Assembly: GCA_937951345.1 (NCBI GenBank)
Contig: CALFCF010000076.1
Coordinates: forward strand, 1-64,000
From: an uncultured Granulosicoccaceae bacterium
Lineage (GTDB): Bacteria; Pseudomonadota; Gammaproteobacteria; Granulosicoccales; Granulosicoccaceae
Length of the DNA: 64,000 bases
Direction: 5' to 3'
Shown here: positions 45,554-56,700 of the stretch, piece after piece
Layout of the letters: every line of letters begins with the position of its first letter
How positions within the stretch are numbered: the stretch's first letter is position 1
Notes under the pieces: model-generated
What the model was told of the DNA's origin: nothing
The model's input: the letters and a program-made list of their open reading frames with translations, nothing else
The model's database searches: none
Translations under genes and position numbers: made by a program

Positions 45554-47101
45554 ATGAATGCGCAAACCGAGTTGGGGCGAGTCCGCTCGCGCACATTGAT
45601 GGGCATCCGTGGACTACCTGTCGATGTCGAAGCGCAGTTGCTTCCCGGATTACCGAAGTTCACGATCGTTGGTTTACCTGAGGCCGCAGTGCGTGAAAGC
45701 CGCGATCGAATTCGCGGAGCCATGCTGGCCTCCGGTATAGAGTTCCCGCAACGTGCAATCGTTGTTAATCTGGCTCCGGCAGATTTGCCCAAGCAAGGGG
45801 GGCGTTTTGATCTGCCGATTGCCATCGCGATATTGCTGGCCATGCATCAGCTTGACCCGGTAACTTGTCAGTCATTTGAGTTTATCGGTGAGCTGTCGTT
45901 AAGCGGGCAAATCCGGCCGGTAGAGGGGGCCTTACCGACAGCGATGTCGCTGATCAAACCGCAAACGGCGAAAGAATCTCAACAATCGGTTTTAAAAAAA
46001 TTGATCGTACCTGCAGCCAACGCTGTCGAAGCAGGTCTTTGTCAATCCTGTGCGATCTATCCGGTAACGTCATTAACTGAATTGGTGGCAGGGCTTGCCG
46101 GCACAACTGAGCTCGTACCATTGCATGTAGATGAACCTGTGCCCGGCTCATCTGGCAATGTAACGTTGCCTGATTTAAGTACTGTCAAAGGTCAGCACAC
46201 TGCCCGACGTGCGCTTGAGATCGCCTGCGCTGGCTGCCATAACCTGCTGATGGTTGGACCTCCTGGAACAGGCAAGTCGTTACTGGCGTCTGTTGCTGCC
46301 GGTATATTGCCAGAGATGTCGTTAGAGGAAGCAGTTCAGACTGCATCGATTCAATCGATCAGCCATCAGGGTTTTGATGTGTCCCGGTGGCGCCAGCGAC
46401 CGGTACGCTCGCCACATCATACGGTGTCCGGTGTTGCACTGGTCGGTGGTGGTAGCAAACCTAAACCGGGTGAAATTTCGCTGGCTCACAACGGAGTGCT
46501 ATTTCTTGATGAGCTTGCAGAATTTCCAAGATCTGTGCTCGATGTTTTGCGCGAACCACTGGAAGCAGGGCATGTCACTATTTCCCGGGCGAGTAGATCG
46601 GCACAGTTCCCGGCTGACTTCCAGCTTATTGCCGCAATGAATCCCTGTCCTTGCGGCTATGCAGGTGATCTGCAGACTCAATGTCGTTGCAGTATGGAAC
46701 AAATACGACGGTATACATCACGATTGTCCGGGCCGTTACTTGACCGGATTGATTTGCAGGTGGGTGTGCCTCGCGTAGCGGTAACTGAGCTAAAAAAATC
46801 AGCCAATGGTGAGAGTAGTCAGCAGGTTCGGCAACGTGTCTGTGCCGCTTACGATGTTCAGTTACAACGTCAGAAGTGTGTCAACGGCAAACTTACAGGT
46901 GACGCGCTGGAGCACTATGCTCATCTCAACGCGCCGGCTACGCACCAATTAATGCGCGCCACTGAAAAATATAATTTGTCACTGCGTGCCCATTACCGGT
47001 TAATGCGTGTGGCAAGAACCATTGCAGACCTGAGTGGTTCAGTAGCAGTACGTGGAGAGCATGTGCTGGAGGCGTTGTCGTACCGTCAGCAAATAAAATA
47101 G
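45554..47101 (+). CDS. comM: ComM/YifB family Mg-chelatase-like AAA ATPase
   Basis: A hexameric helicase that promotes branch migration during natural transformation in Vibrio and others. 515 residues: an N-terminal Lon-like domain (VDVEAQLLPGLPKFTIVGLPEAAVRES), the AAA+ core with Walker A GPPGTGKS (about 235-242), LFLDELAEF and MNPCPCGY, and the C-terminal Mg_chelatase domain with RVARTIADL near the end. The zinc-finger-like Cys cluster (PCPCGY, QCRCS) is present. Complete and probably functional. A decayed fragment of a second copy lies at 53089-53262. Upstream ubiK is in the same direction. Confidence 0.93.
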   Translation: MNAQTELGRVRSRTLMGIRGLPVDVEAQLLPGLPKFTIVGLPEAAVRESRDRIRGAMLASGIEFPQRAIVVNLAPADLPKQGGRFDLPIAIAILLAMHQLDPVTCQSFEFIGELSLSGQIRPVEGALPTAMSLIKPQTAKESQQSVLKKLIVPAANAVEAGLCQSCAIYPVTSLTELVAGLAGTTELVPLHVDEPVPGSSGNVTLPDLSTVKGQHTARRALEIACAGCHNLLMVGPPGTGKSLLASVAAGILPEMSLEEAVQTASIQSISHQGFDVSRWRQRPVRSPHHTVSGVALVGGGSKPKPGEISLAHNGVLFLDELAEFPRSVLDVLREPLEAGHVTISRASRSAQFPADFQLIAAMNPCPCGYAGDLQTQCRCSMEQIRRYTSRLSGPLLDRIDLQVGVPRVAVTELKKSANGESSQQVRQRVCAAYDVQLQRQKCVNGKLTGDALEHYAHLNAPATHQLMRATEKYNLSLRAHYRLMRVARTIADLSGSVAVRGEHVLEALSYRQQIK

Positions 47102-47424: not shown

Positions 47425-48180
47425 ATGATGAGACGTATTAACATGAAGTATATATCTGTTACTTTGCTGCTTTTTATCGCTTTTTTACCCGTTCACCGGG
47501 TATCAGCAAAAGAAGTCACAATGACCTTCGATCAAACCATCGTGCCATTTGTCCTGGCAGATCAAGATGGTGGTATCCAGGTTGACATTATTAGAGAGGC
47601 TTTGGCATTTAAAGGTCACACGCTTGTTGCTGTCTATGTATCAGCAAAACGCATGATGCATGAATTAAAAATTGGTGCGGTTGACGCGGCATCAAGTGGC
47701 TCTTACGATCCGGCGACTGAAAAAGGCTTTCATTATGGGATAGCGCCGTTTTCGTATCGGAATGCCTTTTTTACGCTCGAAGAGCGCAGTATAGATATAC
47801 AAAAGCCTTCTGATATCGATGATTTTCGGATAGCTACCTTTCAGAACGCTAAACTCATTTGGCCGGATTGGCTGGAGCCGATCGACCAAAAGAACAATTA
47901 CATTGAAGTTGCTGATCAATCGCTACAACCCAAGATGCTGGAACACGGTCGAGTTGACGCTGTTGTAGCCGATCAAACAATTTTTGCTTACTACACCCGG
48001 CTTCTGGAGAAGCAAAGTGGAAAAAAATTAAAACCAACAGTTGCGTATTCATTTACCGATCCTGTTAGTTTCCCTCCCGTATTTAAATCGGAGCAAATAC
48101 GAGACGACTTCAACGAAGGCATACAGCACCTGCTGGAAACTTCCAGGCACGAAGAAATTTTCGACGCTTATCTAAAGTAA
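47425..48180 (+). CDS. Periplasmic solute-binding protein, family 3 (candidate ligand sensor)
   Basis: 251 residues with a signal peptide (YISVTLLLFIAFLPVHRVSA, cleavage before KEVT). The mature part is an SBP_bac_3-like amino-acid-binding fold (IQVDIIREALAFKGHTL, GAVDAASSGSY, PFSYRNAFF, VDAVVADQTIFAYY). Starts at 47425, 47428 or 47443 are possible; the ATG at 47443 begins directly with the signal peptide. No ABC permease or ATPase is adjacent. It lies 25 bp before the hybrid kinase, so it more likely passes a ligand signal to the kinase's periplasmic domain than serves transport. The ligand is unknown. Confidence 0.83.
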   Translation: MMRRINMKYISVTLLLFIAFLPVHRVSAKEVTMTFDQTIVPFVLADQDGGIQVDIIREALAFKGHTLVAVYVSAKRMMHELKIGAVDAASSGSYDPATEKGFHYGIAPFSYRNAFFTLEERSIDIQKPSDIDDFRIATFQNAKLIWPDWLEPIDQKNNYIEVADQSLQPKMLEHGRVDAVVADQTIFAYYTRLLEKQSGKKLKPTVAYSFTDPVSFPPVFKSEQIRDDFNEGIQHLLETSRHEEIFDAYLK

Positions 48181-48205
48181 ATTTGAGTTTGGTATATAAA
48201 CGACG

Positions 48206-50530
48206 ATGGACTTTAGCGAGCAATTGCCGAATCGCCGGATACTTATTCGGTCCAAAATCCTTAGTATCACGGTTCCCATCATACTGATTTGTATTCTGGC
48301 GGTATTCGGGATGTTTGAATACAACGCTCAATCCAAAGCGGTCAACGCACTTCAGCAGAAGATGGATAGAGTGATGGATGTTCAGGCAAAAGTGTTGTCA
48401 GAACCCACCTGGAATTTGGCAGAAAAACAGATCCAGCTAACACTTGAAGCGCTTATAGAGGCCGATCCAGATATATCGCAAGCAATAGTTTACGATGAAA
48501 GTAAAAGTCAAATTGCTGCAGCATACGGTGATGAGCAATCTTCCAGCGCTTTCTTCACTCATGAACGTGCCATAAAATATATTGTCTCGGGACAAATCAG
48601 AAACATTGGAACACTTGAAATTATCTCAAGCCAAAAGAGCCTGGCATCCGAGCGCTATAGTCGGCTGTTATTAGCAGGTGTGCTTGCAGCGTTGCTGGTT
48701 GTGACGGTGATTTTGGGGACGCTGTTTGCAGTAAACCGAGTTGTCGGTGTCCCTATGAATTTGTTGTTAAAGTCCATCAATCAAACAACAGGTGATCAAC
48801 GCGACTTAATCGATTTCAGCAGCACAGATGAAATGGGTATGGTTATCAAGTCCTACAACAGCATGTTAACCAGGGAGCAAGAAAATAAACAAGCATTGAA
48901 TGCCCTGAATGAACAGCTTGAAGAACGGGTTTCATTGAGAACGCAAGAGCTTTCAGCCGCTCGTGATGAAGCAGATCGGGCTAATCAGGCTAAAAGTTCT
49001 TTCCTCGCCACAATGAGCCACGAAATTAGAACCCCGCTCAACGGCATAATTGGCATGAGTACTTTACTTGAAGGTACAAAGCTCAATGAAGAGCAACGTG
49101 AATTCAGCCAGACGATACACAATGCCAGTGACACTCTATTGTCGATCATCAATAACATTCTGGACTTCTCCAAAGTTGAGGCAGGTGCAATCGATCTCGA
49201 AAAAAGACCTATTAATCTGATCGAAACCATAGAAGACGCTATAGAACTGGTCTCAACGGAAGCCTCTGAAAAAAGGCTTGAATTAATCTGTAACATAGAT
49301 GATTCAGTGCCTGAAGGTGTGCTGGGTGACTCAACACGCTTGAAACAGATTCTGATGAATTTAATGAACAACGCTATAAAATTCACAGAATCGGGTGAGG
49401 TTATGTTAGATGTGAAATTACTAACACCAGATACCTTGAAATTTACGATTACGGATACAGGCATTGGTATTCCTGTAGATCGTATGGATAAATTGTTTAA
49501 ATCTTTTTCTCAAATTGATACATCTACAACAAGACGTTATGGCGGTACCGGTTTAGGGCTGGTTATTACAAAAAAAATGGTTGAGCTTATGGGCGGTGAC
49601 ATAAAGGTGGAAAGCACCTTAAACAAGGGGTCTGTTTTTTCCTTTGTAATCCCATTCGAAACCGCTAAAGCGCCGGCTGCATTAGCGACAATTGAGCTGC
49701 TATCGTCTGTTAAAGGGCGAAAGGCGCTGGTCGTAGATGATAATTCAACCAATAGGTTGATATTGTGTAACAAGCTTAAGAAATGGGGGGTCGATGTTTT
49801 TGAGGTGTCTGATCCTCGTGATGCATTGGATGCTCTTGATCAGAAGAAAGAGTTTGACTTTTGTATTATAGACTTTGCTATGCCGGGAATGGATGGCATC
49901 GAGCTGGCGAAAGAAATTCAAATGCGCCGTGATAATAGTATGGAAATTATACTTTATACCTCGATATCACCATCAGATTTTGAAATTCGACAACGATTGG
50001 AAAGTGTAAAGCTCTCTGCAGTGTTACTTAAGCCTGCAAAAACATCTCAAATATTGGCAACTATTGCGCGCGCGATGTCGATTGAAACAGCGACGGAAAG
50101 TCAAGCCATAACAACGCTTGATACGCACCGCAATGCTAGAAATTTGCGCATTCTTCTGGTTGATGATAATGCGATCAACAGAAAGGTAGGGTCGAAGATA
50201 CTCAAGCGTATCGGTTACGGACCAGATATTTCCAACAGTGGTCAGGAAGCAATAGAGGCTTGCCAAAAACAATCTTATGATTTGGTGCTAATGGATATAG
50301 AAATGCCAAACATGAACGGCATTACTGCGACACAAAAAATACGCGATCTCCTGCCAAAGGAAGATATGCCTTATTTCATTGCGTTGACCGCAAATGCAAT
50401 GGAAGCGGATCGAAAAACCTATTTGGCTTCTGGAATGGATGGTTATCTAAGTAAACCTATAGATATGAGTGCGCTCATGGAAGCGCTGGATGATGTTAGT
50501 GAACATCGCTCTAACTTGAATAAATTGTAA
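48206..50530 (+). CDS. Hybrid sensor histidine kinase with two receiver domains
   Basis: 774 residues. Transmembrane helices lie at about 19-37 and 153-176, enclosing a periplasmic sensor of about 115 residues. Then a HAMP-like region, a coiled coil ([20 protein letters not shown]), the HisKA box with His272 in [10 protein letters not shown], and the HATPase with its N box [16 protein letters not shown] and GGTGLGL. Receiver 1 (about 505-625) has the phosphoacceptor Asp556 and Lys609; receiver 2 (about 647-765) has Asp697 and Lys750. All phosphotransfer residues are present. It follows the solute-binding gene by 25 bp and precedes an HPt gene by 81 bp, giving a full multistep phosphorelay. 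Confidence 0.93.
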
Positions 50531-50611
50531 GCCTGTCTTTATGTATGCGAGTCGCTCAGGTCATTCGCAATACATAAGCCTCATAACACAATAGCCGTAA
50601 TACTGGTTGAT

Positions 50612-50965
50612 ATGACACAGATTGATACAGGTGCGTTAGTCCGTCTACGTGATGTTATTGGTGGAGATGAGGAAGATTTGGCTGAGCTTATTCAAGATTT
50701 TTCTGAAACATCCCCCGATCTTGCTGATCAGATGGCGGCTAGTGCTAACGCTTCGGATTGGGCTGCATTAAAGATAGCTGCCCATTCGTTAAAATCTAAC
50801 TGTAAAGACTTTGGAGCAGTCGAGCTCGCCGAATTGTGTCAGTCATTGGAAAGTGAGAGTGCACAGGGTGAGGTCACGAATGCACATGATAAAGTTGAAA
50901 AAATTTCCGCCGAAGTAAAAATAGCCGTCAAATTTCTACAGGATTTAGATTTGGCTGGACTTTAA
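50612..50965 (+). CDS. HPt phosphotransfer protein
   Basis: 117 residues, single helical histidine phosphotransfer domain. The phosphorylatable His58 is in AAHSLKSN, with the usual Gly-containing follow-up KDFGAVELAELCQ. It relays phosphate between the receivers of the hybrid kinase and an output receiver. It is encoded directly after the kinase and is the second-last piece of the phosphorelay. The convergent receiver-permease gene ends 72 bp away and is the obvious candidate output. Confidence 0.9.
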   Translation: MTQIDTGALVRLRDVIGGDEEDLAELIQDFSETSPDLADQMAASANASDWAALKIAAHSLKSNCKDFGAVELAELCQSLESESAQGEVTNAHDKVEKISAEVKIAVKFLQDLDLAGL

Positions 50966-51037
50966 CCGCAGGCACGTACGTCAGAATTTACTGCGATAAG
51001 GATATTCAACAGGCTATTCAGCTGAGTTCAGGTAAAT

Positions 51038-52621
51038 TCAGGTATTGTCTGGATGCGTGATGCTTGATGTGCCCGGTTGTGAATTGCGATTGTTGGGCGC
51101 TCCAGTATCAACCCGAGGAAAGATTGGCGTCTTATCTTCCTCTTGTCTTCGTGGCCCTACCAGAAACAATCCGCATAACATCAACAGTAAGGCGAGCCAG
51201 GCAATACCAGGTAGCCTCTCACCGAGTAGCAATGCGCCCCATGCAATGCCGCAGACAGTAACGACGATACTGCTCTGGCTGGCAAATACAGCACCCAGAT
51301 ACTTAATCAGAATTACCCGAAGCGAACAGGTCACCGCCGAGATTAATCCCATTAGAAGCACAACCATCGTAACCTTGTCAAAACCACTGCCAAATTTTAG
51401 CGGGTAATAGTCATCAAATATCACAATGAGCGGTAGCAGTATTATCGCAGCGGCAAATCCGGAGTAACCAGCCGCTGTAATTCGGTCAAGTTCTTCGGGC
51501 AAATACTGTGCGAGCATCAAGCCACGCAAGGCGTATCCCAGCGGACCCATGGCAGCAACGAGAATCCATGTCCAGCGGGCTTCTCCTTCAAGGTTTTGGG
51601 TTACCGACATCAGGACAAATACGCCAACGACTCCAATGACAAAACCCAGGAAGCGCCGCAAACTAGGTTGTTCAATTCTAAAGACCATGGCCAGCAGGAA
51701 AGCCATGAAACCTTCTGTTACCACAACCAACGAAATAATCCACGCCTCTAGTTGCTCAGCTGCCCAGAAGATAAAAACTTCACCTATCAGTGTTCCCAGT
51801 ATGCCCCAGGCTGCGAACACCACTATCAATTTGGCATTAAGGCGGAACAGTTTCCCTCGCACTGCACCAACTCCGATACACAACACGCCACATACAATGT
51901 TGACCCAGAAAGCAGTACCTATGGGATGAGGTTGCTCCAACGCTACTGTCCGCGACAATGGTGCCCATAGTCCTGAGACTATGCCGATAGCAAGTAATCC
52001 GAACACACCTTTAAGAGCACTAATCTGCTCGCGTAAACGCCGATCTCTCTCGTACACCTGGGCGGTCATGCGTGCAAACACACGAGATAGCCGGCCTAGA
52101 GAATCGTCGCGTGCGTCTATATCTTCAAACTGAAACCTTGCTGGATCGACGACTTCTTTTTCGAGTATTGCTGCTGCGTCGGCCAGTCGCTCGACCTGAT
52201 TCAGGTAGGTGATCTCGCGATCGCGGTTTCTTTTTTTCTCCAGCGACGCTCCGATTCGTGCGTTAAGAAGAACCGGATCAAAATTCTTTCTCAGAAAATC
52301 CTGTGCCCCAGCCTTGATCGCTCGAACTACACTGTCCATCTCGCCATCAAGTGACGAAATAACGATGACTGGAATTTCGCGCAAATGCTTGTCAGCGTTC
52401 ATTTGGCGCATTACCTCAAAGCCATCGATATCCGGCATCACAATATCGAGTAGTATCAGATCTACTGATTCTGATTTTAAAAATTCCAGTGCTTGCGCGC
52501 CGCTTTCCACAGAGACGGCGTTGTAGCCCAGATTTTTTACCGCCAGCAATATCTTTTTACGTTGAATGGCCTGGTCGTCGACCACAAGGATAGTTTCGAC
52601 AGCGCGTGAAGAGTTCTCCAA
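51038..52621 (-). CDS. Response regulator receiver fused to an EamA/DMT-type permease
   Basis: 527 residues. N-terminal receiver (9-125): acidic DD at 15-16, phosphoacceptor Asp59 (LLLDIVMPDIDGFE), Ser89/90 and Lys112. A 75-residue linker rich in charged helices (ERLADAAAILEKE, SLGRLSRVFARM) resembles signalling helices. From 204 on, ten hydrophobic helices in two EamA-like halves (second half from about 360) run to GLFLVGPRR, then a polar tail. Receivers joined to integral transporters are rare. The lack of a DNA-binding or enzymatic output suggests that phosphorylation directly gates export or import. It is convergent with the kinase/HPt operon. Confidence 0.88.
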   Translation of the reverse strand: MENSSRAVETILVVDDQAIQRKKILLAVKNLGYNAVSVESGAQALEFLKSESVDLILLDIVMPDIDGFEVMRQMNADKHLREIPVIVISSLDGEMDSVVRAIKAGAQDFLRKNFDPVLLNARIGASLEKKRNRDREITYLNQVERLADAAAILEKEVVDPARFQFEDIDARDDSLGRLSRVFARMTAQVYERDRRLREQISALKGVFGLLAIGIVSGLWAPLSRTVALEQPHPIGTAFWVNIVCGVLCIGVGAVRGKLFRLNAKLIVVFAAWGILGTLIGEVFIFWAAEQLEAWIISLVVVTEGFMAFLLAMVFRIEQPSLRRFLGFVIGVVGVFVLMSVTQNLEGEARWTWILVAAMGPLGYALRGLMLAQYLPEELDRITAAGYSGFAAAIILLPLIVIFDDYYPLKFGSGFDKVTMVVLLMGLISAVTCSLRVILIKYLGAVFASQSSIVVTVCGIAWGALLLGERLPGIAWLALLLMLCGLFLVGPRRQEEDKTPIFPRVDTGAPNNRNSQPGTSSITHPDNT

Positions 52622-53003
52622 AATCTATGAAAGTTCCGTAGTTGGTTTAGGGATTTGTTTTTTATTAGCTACAAATTGTCAATCAACCCTAAGTATTAAG
52701 TATGGATTTCTGCGCTGATCAGTTCCAGCTAACCGAGCAACTTTGATACTTGGATACGTCGACATATCGGTAGGGTATTTCTCATAATCGGCGGATCTGT
52801 ATGGCTTCAAAAGTGTTTTGATCAGACGCGATTTTCGCATTGGTTGGCAATGGTATCAATCCGTTGATTATTGCAATTATCTGTCCGCAAGGTGGTGATT
52901 GATGATACCCACAGCGCCTTTAAAATAATCTGTACAGCATACTATCGAATCACTAAGTGCAACCAGGATCTTTGATCCGCGAGGCTTCTAAAACATAGTA
53001 AAA

Positions 53004-53035
53004 GAATTTGTGACAATTAGAATTTGTGACAATTG
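53004..53035. repeat. 16-bp tandem duplication
   Basis: GAATTTGTGACAATTA (53004-53019) and GAATTTGTGACAATTG (53020-53035) lie back to back in the non-coding gap between the receiver-permease gene (its upstream side) and the comM remnant. Confidence 0.85.
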
Positions 53036-53088: not shown

Positions 53089-53262
53089 TTGTCGCCAAGC
53101 ACACCAGAGAAAAACCATAGGCCAACCGCAGATCACCGAACGCCGGCTATGCACCAATTAATGCGTGTGGTAAGAACGATCGCGGATCTCGGTGAATCCG
53201 AACCCGTTCGTAAAGCCGATATTTTAGAGGCGCTATCGTATCGTCAACAACTGTTGAGCTAG
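53089..53262 (+). pseudogene. comM: Decayed C-terminal fragment of a second comM
   Basis: The frame ending TAG at 53262 encodes ...TPAMHQLMRVVRTIADL, then ILEALSYRQQLLS. This matches the intact ComM C-terminus (APATHQLMR, RVARTIADL, VLEALSYRQQ). Seventeen codons between the two TTAATGCG repeats of comM are missing, so the remnant looks like an in-frame deletion between 8-bp direct repeats. Upstream similarity stops near 53140, and there is no credible start; 53089 is only the last TTG in frame. Many differences from comM are at third codon positions, so it is an old copy or one from a related lineage. Confidence 0.75.
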
Positions 53263-53307: not shown

Positions 53308-53982
53308 TCACTCATCCCCGACGTCGCGGGAAGTTTGCAGCGAACGCATTTCGGTCGTGGTGAAGTCGTCAGCCAGGTTTAGTGAGTAATAAAGGGCAAT
53401 TGCCTGGCTACGATTTCGGACATTCAATTTGTCGTACAGGTTACGCAGGTGAAACTTAACGGTGTTAACCGCAATGTTGTGGTTGGATGCCAGTTCTTTG
53501 TTGGTTCGACCCAGTGATAATGATGCGAGAAGTGCGCGTTCTGTTTTCGTCAATGTTTGTAGTGGGTCGGCCAGCTCTCTGACGTCAAGGTAGGGGAATA
53601 CCATGCTGCCGATCGCGACGGTTGCGATGACTTCCAGCAATTCTTCAGATGGCGATGTGTGGCAGAAAAACCCGGCTGCTCCTGCGGCCATTGCGCGTTT
53701 GGGCACCTCGAGAGATTTAACGTGGGTACAGACCACCACGCGCATCGGACTGTTTTCATCACGCAATACTTTTATGAGCTTCTCGGCACCCAGTGTCGGC
53801 AGCAACCAGTCGACAACCAGTACATCACCCGGCGATTCGAACGATGTTTTCAGGCAGTCCTCGGCCGATGTTACCGTGCTCATCAGGCTGAAACGGGGAT
53901 CCTCCTCGATCAATTCCGACAACGCGGTGAGCATCAGCGCGTTACCCTCGGCGATGGTGATCCCAATTGGCTTAGCGCTCAC
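53308..53982 (-). CDS. LuxR-type response regulator with degenerate receiver
   Basis: 224 residues: a receiver (about 7-125) and a LuxR/GerE helix-turn-helix (about 145-210, LTKTERALLASLSLGRTNKELA, NTVKFHLRNLYDKLNVRNRSQAI). The likely phosphoacceptor Asp58 (VLVVDWLLP) and the Thr of VVVCTHV remain. The acidic pair is reduced to Glu12 (IAEGNAL), and the conserved Lys is replaced (FFCHTSP), so control may not depend on normal phosphorylation. It is divergent from the sga-mtk operon with a 150-bp shared region, which makes it the likely regulator of these C1/serine-cycle genes. No kinase is adjacent. Confidence 0.85.
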   Translation of the reverse strand: MSAKPIGITIAEGNALMLTALSELIEEDPRFSLMSTVTSAEDCLKTSFESPGDVLVVDWLLPTLGAEKLIKVLRDENSPMRVVVCTHVKSLEVPKRAMAAGAAGFFCHTSPSEELLEVIATVAIGSMVFPYLDVRELADPLQTLTKTERALLASLSLGRTNKELASNHNIAVNTVKFHLRNLYDKLNVRNRSQAIALYYSLNLADDFTTTEMRSLQTSRDVGDE

Positions 53983-54132: not shown

Positions 54133-55383
54133 ATGCTAATGAGCACAAATACCTTTGAACGATTAACGATACCGCACACGCTGGCCGCAGGCCCGGGACC
54201 GGGAAACACCGACCAGCGTGTGCTTGAACAGTATGCCCGTTGCGGTGTAGCGGATCACATGCAGCCGGATGTTTTGCGTGGCATGGTTGAATGCAAATTC
54301 ATGCTGCGCGATGTGTTCGGGACAGATAACGTGCACACCTTCGGCGTTGCGGGTACGGGTTGGAGCGGACTGGATGCCATGATGAGTGCGGTCCTGCCGG
54401 GTGACACTGTTGTAGCCTTCGTCAACGGCACATTCTCCGGTATCGACGGTCTTACACTGCGCATGAAGGCTGCGACAGCAGAAGAGCTCGCTGCCGATCC
54501 AACCAACCCGCAACCAGCCTCTGTCACTATCGTAGAAATCCCGCACGGGCAGTCTGTTGATGCTGCAACGATTGAGGATGCATTGAGCCGGCACAAACCG
54601 AAGTGGGCATTCATGGCGCACTGGGAAACCGGTTCGGGCCGGATTAACGACCTTGGAGCTTTCTCTGAATCTTGTGAACGTCACAATGCCATGGGATTGA
54701 TCGATGCAGTGTCGTCACTGGGTGTCGCAGACTTTTCGATAGACGATTATCCGGGCGTCGCTGCATGGGCTTCATGTCCGCAAAAAGGTATTTGTTGTTT
54801 GCCCTTGACCTATGCGCCTGTCAGTTTTACTGACCGTTATATAGCAGTACTCAAGCAGACCGGCACGCGTACCTTTGTTCACCATCCGATACTTGAAGCT
54901 CGTCATTGGGGCATTGTTGATGGGAAAGATGTCGAGAAGGGGACCTATCATCGCACCCATTCTGCCTATGCTGTTGCCGCTTTTCATGAGGCGCTGCGCT
55001 TGACACTCGCCGATACGCTCGGAGCACGAGCCGCACTCTATCGCCAGCATGAGGAAGTGTTGCGCACAACGCTTGAAATGCTGGGTTGCCGCGTAACGTC
55101 CAACATGAGTAGTCTGGTTGTGTTCAACCTGCCGGAAGCGTTCGCCGGAAGTGAAATGGAACTCGTGCAGAACTGCCGGGCAGAGGGCTTTGGTATCTGG
55201 ACAACATTGAGTGAACCGGTGCAGATCCGGATCGGTATTTTGAACCAGCTGAATGAGGCTGCTATCACCGAGATATTGACACGCTTCACCGTAGCGCTGA
55301 ACAATATAGGTGCGGATGTCGACATCGACCGACTCAAAGCAGACATCGCGAGTATGTACCAAATCGAGGCAGTTGCGGTTTAA
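54133..55383 (+). CDS. sgaA: Serine-glyoxylate aminotransferase (class V)
   Basis: PLP enzyme that transfers the amino group of serine (or alanine) to glyoxylate, giving hydroxypyruvate and glycine, a core step of the serine cycle. 416 residues; the N-terminal AAGPGPGNTDQRVL is the class V start, DAVSSLGV near 191-198 the cofactor-binding loop, and Lys218 (CPQKGICC) the Schiff-base residue. The related alanine-glyoxylate enzyme cannot be excluded by sequence, but mtkAB and a hydroxypyruvate reductase follow. ATG 54133 or ATG 54139 may be used. First gene of the operon, 123 bp before mtkA. Confidence 0.87.
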   Translation: MLMSTNTFERLTIPHTLAAGPGPGNTDQRVLEQYARCGVADHMQPDVLRGMVECKFMLRDVFGTDNVHTFGVAGTGWSGLDAMMSAVLPGDTVVAFVNGTFSGIDGLTLRMKAATAEELAADPTNPQPASVTIVEIPHGQSVDAATIEDALSRHKPKWAFMAHWETGSGRINDLGAFSESCERHNAMGLIDAVSSLGVADFSIDDYPGVAAWASCPQKGICCLPLTYAPVSFTDRYIAVLKQTGTRTFVHHPILEARHWGIVDGKDVEKGTYHRTHSAYAVAAFHEALRLTLADTLGARAALYRQHEEVLRTTLEMLGCRVTSNMSSLVVFNLPEAFAGSEMELVQNCRAEGFGIWTTLSEPVQIRIGILNQLNEAAITEILTRFTVALNNIGADVDIDRLKADIASMYQIEAVAV

Positions 55384-55506
55384 CCGAGTGGTACTGCAAA
55401 CCGTACTGAATGCTGCCCGGCGTCGGAACGAGGCTAACAATTGAGAAGCGTACGTCCAGACTTTTTAGGGTAATGTTGTCGTGAGATAACAAAGTTGGAG
55501 TGCTGC

Positions 55507-56700
55507 TTGGATATACATGAGTATCAGGCAAAAGAGCTTCTCAACGGTTTTGGTATTCGCACTCCCAGAGGAGGGTTAGCCTACAGCCCGGAGCAAGCTG
55601 CCTATCGCGCACGCGATATTGGTGGTGAGCGCTGGGTAGTCAAAGCACAGGTGCACAGCGGTGGTCGTGGCAAGGTCGGTGGTATTCACGATTGCGGCGA
55701 TGAGGACGCGGTTTACCGGGCGGCCAGCCGGCTGTTCGGCAGTCGCTTACAAACCGGTGGTAGCGGCTCTCCTTCAAAGGTTGTTTATCGCGTTTACGTC
55801 GAGGAATACGTTGAAATTCAGCGTGAGATGTACCTCGGTCTTGTGCTCGATCGTAATAGCGAGCGGGTCATGGTGGTTGCCTCTGCCAGCGGTGGCATGG
55901 AGATCGAAGAAATCTCCGTTTCAGAGCCTGATTCAATTCTGCGTTGCATTGTTGAGCCCGCTGTCGGCATGCAGGCGTTTCAGGCACGTGAAATCGCCTT
56001 TCTGTTGGGCATTGATTCGGCCAACCTGCGTTCTGCGACGGACCTGATACTGGCAGCTTATCGCGCGTTTGAAGAACTTGATGCGACCATGGTGGAAATA
56101 AACCCGCTGGTGATTGCTGAGGATGGCCGGTTGTGCGCACTCGATTCGAAAATGACTTTCGATGACAACGCATTGTACCGCCACCCTGAGATTGCTGAGC
56201 TGCGAGACAAGTCGCAGGAGGATGCGCGCGAAACGCGAGCTATGGATCGTGGCCTGAAGTACATCGGGTTTGACGGTGATATCGGTTGCATCGTCAATGG
56301 TGCGGGCCTTGCCATGGCGACGCTTGATCTACTCGAAAAGCATGGTGGTCGAGCAGCAAATTTCCTCGATATCGGTGGAGCTGCGCCGCCGGAGCGTGTC
56401 GCTAAAGCGATCCGTCAGTTGCAATCGGATGAGCACCTCAGTGTACTGCTCATTAATGTATTTGCCGGTATCAATCGTTGTGACTGGATCGCAGAGGGGG
56501 TTGTTCAAGCGCTTGCCGAGAAACCACTAACTATACCGGTAGTGGTGCGCCTGGCAGGCAATAACGTTGAGGAAGGGCGAAAAACATTGTCGCGCAGCGG
56601 TCTGCCGATTATAAGAGCCAGCACACTGGATGAGGCTGTGACGCGGACAATAACTGCTAGACAACGAATGATCGACAGCAACGGCCCACGCAACCCATGA
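55507..56700 (+). CDS. mtkA: Malate-CoA ligase subunit beta (ATP-grasp)
   Basis: ATP-grasp subunit of malate thiokinase, which makes malyl-CoA from malate and CoA in the serine cycle. Homologous to SucC, but the C-terminal pattern NVFAGINRCDWIAEGVVQAL with RLAGNNVEEGR is typical of MtkA. N-terminal DIHEYQAKELLNGFGI and VVKAQVHSGGRGK form the nucleotide site. TTG 55507 is chosen because GGAG (55497-55500) precedes it by six bases and the family starts MDIHEYQ; the longer frame from 55495 covers that site itself. 397 residues. The stop overlaps mtkB (ATGA). If read alone it could be taken for succinyl-CoA synthetase; the context decides. Confidence 0.87.
   Translation: MDIHEYQAKELLNGFGIRTPRGGLAYSPEQAAYRARDIGGERWVVKAQVHSGGRGKVGGIHDCGDEDAVYRAASRLFGSRLQTGGSGSPSKVVYRVYVEEYVEIQREMYLGLVLDRNSERVMVVASASGGMEIEEISVSEPDSILRCIVEPAVGMQAFQAREIAFLLGIDSANLRSATDLILAAYRAFEELDATMVEINPLVIAEDGRLCALDSKMTFDDNALYRHPEIAELRDKSQEDARETRAMDRGLKYIGFDGDIGCIVNGAGLAMATLDLLEKHGGRAANFLDIGGAAPPERVAKAIRQLQSDEHLSVLLINVFAGINRCDWIAEGVVQALAEKPLTIPVVVRLAGNNVEEGRKTLSRSGLPIIRASTLDEAVTRTITARQRMIDSNGPRNP

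Follow-up and report, generated by a model that had tools for sequence, protein, structure and literature searches.

Four adjacent genes occupy positions 47425-52621 of the window (the whole stretch of DNA that was analysed, 64,000 nucleotides). The open reading frames and profile matches of the window place all four where the first-pass annotation had put them. The genes, and the parts of the fourth protein, are as follows.

47425-48180, + strand: SBP_bac_3-like binding protein (SBP), the presumed input, 251 amino acids, recognized from Pfam and PDB matches and a signal segment
48206-50530, + strand: hybrid histidine kinase TM-CHASE5-TM-HisKA(His272)-HATPase_c-REC(Asp556)-REC(Asp697), 774 amino acids
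50612-50965, + strand: HPt protein with His58, 117 amino acids, Pfam Hpt 50.3 bits, of a putatively module-specific family
51038-52621, - strand: REC-EamA, a receiver, a HAMP-like linker and a putative ten-helix EamA (DMT) transporter, 527 amino acids
52253-52591, - strand: receiver of REC-EamA, residues 11-123, with the Asp59 codon at 52445-52447
52052-52198, - strand: HAMP-like linker, about residues 142-190, placed by alignment to the relatives L012 and L011
51158-52012, - strand: two EamA repeats with ten hydrophobic segments, from Pfam and hydrophobicity

The SBP, kinase and HPt genes are co-directional, but the REC-EamA gene is convergent on the HPt gene, with 72 bp between the two stop codons; the adjacency that had been described stands, although the fourth gene does not share the direction of the others. 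Spurious open reading frames are ruled out, as all four genes have curated-family matches or conserved relatives.

The SBP aligns over its full length, but weakly, with SBP_bac_3 (26.1 bits against a cut-off of 26.4), has weak PDB matches to amino-acid-binding proteins (E about 1e-4) and carries a hydrophobic signal segment (residues 5-23). There is no ABC permease or ATPase among the window genes from yifB to REC-EamA, in line with the earlier description of a binding protein lacking ABC partners. The stimulation of sensor kinases by SBPs is a recognized mechanism (PMC9602780). The kinase has the periplasmic sensor and two receivers attributed to it: hydrophobic segments at residues 18-36 and 154-172 enclose a CHASE5 domain (40.2 bits), which is followed by HisKA (His272), HATPase_c and two receivers with intact aspartates (Asp556 and Asp697). 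The assignment of the third protein as an HPt was likewise borne out, with His58 invariant in eight relatives. Together with Asp59 of REC-EamA, all of the residues of a multistep His-Asp-His-Asp phosphorelay are present.

The fusion of a receiver to a ten-helix EamA protein was also confirmed. The EamA domain is found twice (74.7 bits against a cut-off of 28.2) and residues 200-488 contain exactly ten hydrophobic segments. With two repeats above the cut-off and ten predicted transmembrane helices, REC-EamA classifies within the EamA/DMT family as a putative transporter; it shares these features with other members of the family and adds an N-terminal receiver and the linker. EamA members include both importers and exporters. 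The linker, of about 80 residues, looks HAMP-like: Pfam HAMP scores 24.7 and 18.9 bits on the linkers of L012 and L011, both below the cut-off of 25, and in the window protein itself it is undetected by Pfam and was assigned by alignment to these two. HAMP is known elsewhere as a signal converter. A single-sequence search with the receiver-plus-EamA fragment of the window protein found no solved structure, and a structure prediction from a two-sequence alignment gave a pLDDT of 48 and a pTM of 0.26; no conclusion is based on that model. The receiver itself scores 90.4 bits. Across 11 sequences with identities down to 33%, Asp59 and the acidic pair Asp15/Asp16 never vary, and at least 90% of the sequences have Lys112. 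The receiver could merely localize or dock the transporter near the kinase, with the phosphate playing no part in regulating transport, but a pure docking domain would not need this conserved phospho-site, and we consider such a role highly improbable.

A search for gene association across genomes showed that the kinase, HPt and REC-EamA recur together in varying gene order. The first-pass annotation had named rare co-occurrence of the receiver-permease and the kinase operon as evidence against its proposal; instead, 13 of the 16 full-length REC-EamA genes found have both a hybrid kinase and an HPt alongside (window, C89, G013 twice in tandem, G002, G028, G1262, Mesorhizobium, G252, G338, L013, G1270 and G479). 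The three others are orphans (C37, G028 C12 and G1263 C76). Two of the 16 genes, C89 and C37, are paralogues of the window gene in its own genome. C89 (50% identity) belongs to a second complete module: the genes for a hybrid kinase and a Tll0287-like protein, which has a CxxCH heme motif, share one strand, and those for the HPt and REC-EamA share the opposite strand. C37 is among the orphans, though only 1.5 kb separate it from a contig end. Within the bacterium's own family, six of 48 genomes have a full-length REC-EamA, and relatives elsewhere occur in family f82 (apparently alphaproteobacterial), on Mesorhizobium plasmids and in a Hyphomicrobiales MAG. The gene is rare, being present in three of 397 genomes sampled phylum-wide (own genome included) and in one of 387 in the class of G252. 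A scan of genome contigs yielded 80 loci, of which tblastn identified a full-length REC-EamA in one (L013), because the scan picked receiver-domain patterns; another genome-contig scan gave no match. Also seen were a tandem REC-EamA pair around one HPt at L006:6745-10474, the second copy falling in the orphan clade, and a receiver-and-linker fragment with internal stop codons at L098:5470-6207 (G1263), a decaying copy.

The modules are not fixed in order. At least four arrangements occur across the gamma- and alphaproteobacteria: operons of overlapping genes on one strand, an HPt-transporter pair that converges on sensor-kinase, a kinase-transporter pair that converges on the HPt, and the order of the window. 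That the association persists despite rearrangement argues for function. As a yardstick for chance, with about 14 HPt candidates per 4.5 Mb genome any particular gene would have one within 3 kb with a probability of about 2%, a figure that is rough arithmetic on first-look candidate counts. The alphaproteobacterial modules are tight or overlapping operons, often with an SBP upstream, and in G338 the exact family set SBP_bac_3-kinase-HPt-REC-EamA forms a single operon.

The HPt follows the same pattern. A tblastn search of 72,556 plasmids with the window HPt returned four records, namely three Mesorhizobium plasmids and one weak Nostoc match, and the three Mesorhizobium plasmids are the only records in that collection with a full-length REC-EamA. 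When a profile of six module HPts was run against 397 genomes, strong matches were confined to the three genomes carrying REC-EamA; three of the four strong matches were training sequences, the HPt of the C89 module (E 5e-25) was not, and the next best match scored 3e-17. Judged by these sequence searches, the HPt family is specific to REC-EamA modules and tracks REC-EamA in two collections.

The history of the window locus is more complicated. Maximum-likelihood trees, which were restricted to module homologues and in which the kinase branch is long, conflict with one another: REC-EamA groups with the gammaproteobacterial modules (100/99), and the kinase (100/100) and the HPt (99/96) cluster with those of the alphaproteobacterial SBP modules. 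SBP-kinase-HPt has a G+C content of 42-44%, against 49.6% in REC-EamA and about 50-55% in the flanking genes. The locus thus appears to be chimeric, with the kinase and HPt from one module lineage and REC-EamA from another, and the different histories of the transporter gene and the kinase operon suggest that the pairing in the window was assembled secondarily. An intact yifB lies at 45554-47101, and a remnant of a second yifB 3' end is found at 53141-53262 (+ strand), where 98 nt (53153-53250) are 70% identical to 46995-47092 and a 25-nt stretch matches 46932-46956 at 96%. Because of this downstream remnant, and because yifB has a different downstream neighbour in the congener G002, the locus was likely inserted at yifB, assembled from two lineages of one kind of module. 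A perfect 16-nt tandem duplication (AGAATTTGTGACAATT) is present in the intergenic region at 53003-53034 (+ strand), upstream of REC-EamA.

A LuxR/NarL-type response regulator with no evident kinase partner lies at 53308-53982 (- strand), about 690 bp past REC-EamA, flanked by the yifB remnant and a glyoxylate-aminotransferase-like gene. The earlier statement that the system has no DNA-binding output therefore holds for the terminal receiver, which is fused to EamA, but the neighbourhood does contain a DNA-binding regulator, beyond the remnant. An ordinary operon with a DNA-binding output was rejected on account of this position. The SBP, kinase and HPt of the window might nevertheless serve another output such as this regulator, their place beside REC-EamA being accidental; the conflicting trees, the differing G+C content, the convergent orientation and the proximity of the regulator all favour such an arrangement. 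However, the other members of the clade that holds the window kinase and HPt all come from operons with REC-EamA, and the regulator sits beyond the remnant, which marks one edge of the insertion, so that an accidental neighbourhood seems quite unlikely. A chimeric origin weakens strict co-inheritance, yet it would be hard to explain were the kinase and HPt unrelated to REC-EamA. Given the different lineages and the convergent genes, co-expression in the window is not assured.

The combination of a periplasmic binding protein, a hybrid kinase and an HPt step resembles TorT-TorS-TorR and LuxP-LuxQ-LuxU-LuxO. The best named relatives of the window kinase and HPt, both distant, are TorS and LuxU, and the alphaproteobacterial module kinases match the TorS sensor domain. 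The window proteins are not members of these systems, as they miss the equivalog cut-offs (TorS 468 against 676, LuxQ 359 against 1200 and LuxU 24.5 against 140 bits). Unlike in TorS, the HPt is a separate gene, and whereas TorR and LuxO bind DNA, the terminal receiver of the window is fused to a transporter. In the SLC5-STAC histidine kinases CbrA and CrbS a transporter is fused to a kinase that drives a transcription factor (PMC13022988). As in REC-EamA, transporter and two-component domains are joined through a cytoplasmic linker, but the transporter is at the input side and of the SLC5 type, whereas in REC-EamA it is at the output side and of the EamA type. The window kinase is not CbrA-like, having CHASE5 and neither SLC5 nor STAC.

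The outputs of most characterized two-component systems are transcription, second messengers or motility. The occurrence of the kinase, HPt and REC-EamA together in distant bacteria suggests that here a transporter is probably switched by a signalling phosphate and not by gene expression. The relay wiring of the three proteins is supported by the 13 of 16 association, the HPt specificity, the single operon of G338, the invariant Asp59 and His58 and the HAMP-like linker. On this basis we think it somewhat probable that phosphate passes along a His-Asp-His-Asp relay to a terminal receiver that forms part of a DMT-family (EamA) transporter, and that it adjusts transport there. In such a relay, the ligand-loaded SBP would contact the periplasmic CHASE5 domain of the kinase, which would autophosphorylate at His272 and pass the phosphate to its own receivers at Asp556 or Asp697. 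HPt His58 would then carry it to Asp59 of REC-EamA, a step suggested by the conserved gene association and the HPt specificity. Phosphorylation could change the conformation of the receiver and of the HAMP-like helices, which continue into the first transmembrane helix, and so alter EamA transport. Such an adjustment would be quick and would need no transcription step.

HAMP-like linkers are able to carry signals either way, and this counts in favour of reverse or two-way flow, in which EamA would be a transceptor or membrane sensor, substrate occupancy would set receiver phosphorylation, and the receiver would act on the relay as a phosphate sink or as a feedback brake. In CbrA and other transporter-kinase fusions, too, a transporter is tied to signalling (PMC13022988). 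However, most modules encode no other output close by, which would leave a sink braking a relay that has no visible target, and a related Sinorhizobium receiver drives a cyclase catalytic domain, which is an output. We regard reverse flow as unlikely. The modules represent a real, rare and conserved type of predicted phosphorelay that likely ends in a transporter.

The module of Sinorhizobium meliloti pSymB shares a Tll0287 protein and a hybrid kinase with REC-EamA modules, and its receiver is about 45% identical to that of REC-EamA. It has neither EamA nor an annotated HPt; its receiver instead carries a class III nucleotide cyclase as output, and a HisKA protein and a single-domain receiver take part. 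The inputs vary as well. An SBP lies directly upstream of the kinase in four alphaproteobacterial modules; the upstream gene is of the SBP_bac_3 type in the window and G338 and DctP (a TRAP-type SBP) in G252 and G1270, and is a look-alike open reading frame in G479. The gammaproteobacterial modules, from the window's own family, have a c-heme Tll0287 protein as sensor instead of an SBP, and the Mesorhizobium modules have cytoplasmic GAF domains inside the kinase. Tll0287 domains are c-heme Cache sensors with NO-sensor properties (PMC12889525). Both inputs (SBP, heme or GAF) and outputs (transporter or cyclase) thus appear to be interchangeable; the inputs vary around a shared kinase-HPt-transporter core. 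Because the linker scores near the HAMP cut-off in two relatives, the comparison suggests that REC-HAMP is a portable coupling unit. The chances seem evenly balanced that the modules represent a conserved class of phosphorelay in which the terminal response regulator is a transporter, SBP, heme or GAF sensing gates flux through REC-HAMP-transmembrane coupling, and inputs and outputs can be swapped.

Searches of an open-access literature collection brought up no description of REC-EamA, and a prior listing in Galperin's review of response-regulator output domains is possible. The conserved, HPt-specific wiring of the protein seems to be new; for the architecture itself this is not certain. If the proposal is true, a receiver-transporter with its own kinase and HPt would amount to a minimal system, open to reconstitution, in which the phosphorylation of one aspartate sets membrane flux, and purified parts would suffice to test signal-to-transporter coupling directly. 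The seeming exchange between transporter and cyclase would show how relays swap their outputs in evolution.

Several neighbouring and related genes were also recorded. At L102:7055-8110, a gammaproteobacterial protein combining HisKA, the receiver type of REC-EamA and HAMP, without EamA, adjoins a hybrid kinase and is another user of REC-HAMP. Related proteins at L012:434-2278 and L013:4962-6770 (26% identity) have a LuxR-type GerE domain and possibly an alpha/beta-hydrolase-like C terminus; they adjoin REC-EamA and, in L012, overlap it. A transcriptional arm may exist in G338 and L013, where a GerE-containing protein lies beside the transporter. Downstream in the window (54133-56700, + strand), a class V aminotransferase gene precedes one that resembles malate-CoA ligase beta (590 bits, cut-off 604), a serine-cycle-like pair. 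Close EamA relatives of about 310 amino acids that lack the receiver occur in the window's own family. Receiver-less EamA genes of this kind lie at L093:7914-8849, L094:7279-8217 and L095:209-1273; two have tricarboxylate-type or L-arabinonate dehydratase genes close by, and the third adjoins a trans-3-hydroxy-L-proline dehydratase gene. Metabolic genes around the relatives (L-arabinonate dehydratase, trans-3-hydroxy-L-proline dehydratase, 2-hydroxyacid dehydrogenase and FMN-dependent hydroxyacid dehydrogenase) give a weak hint that the substrates are organic or amino acids.
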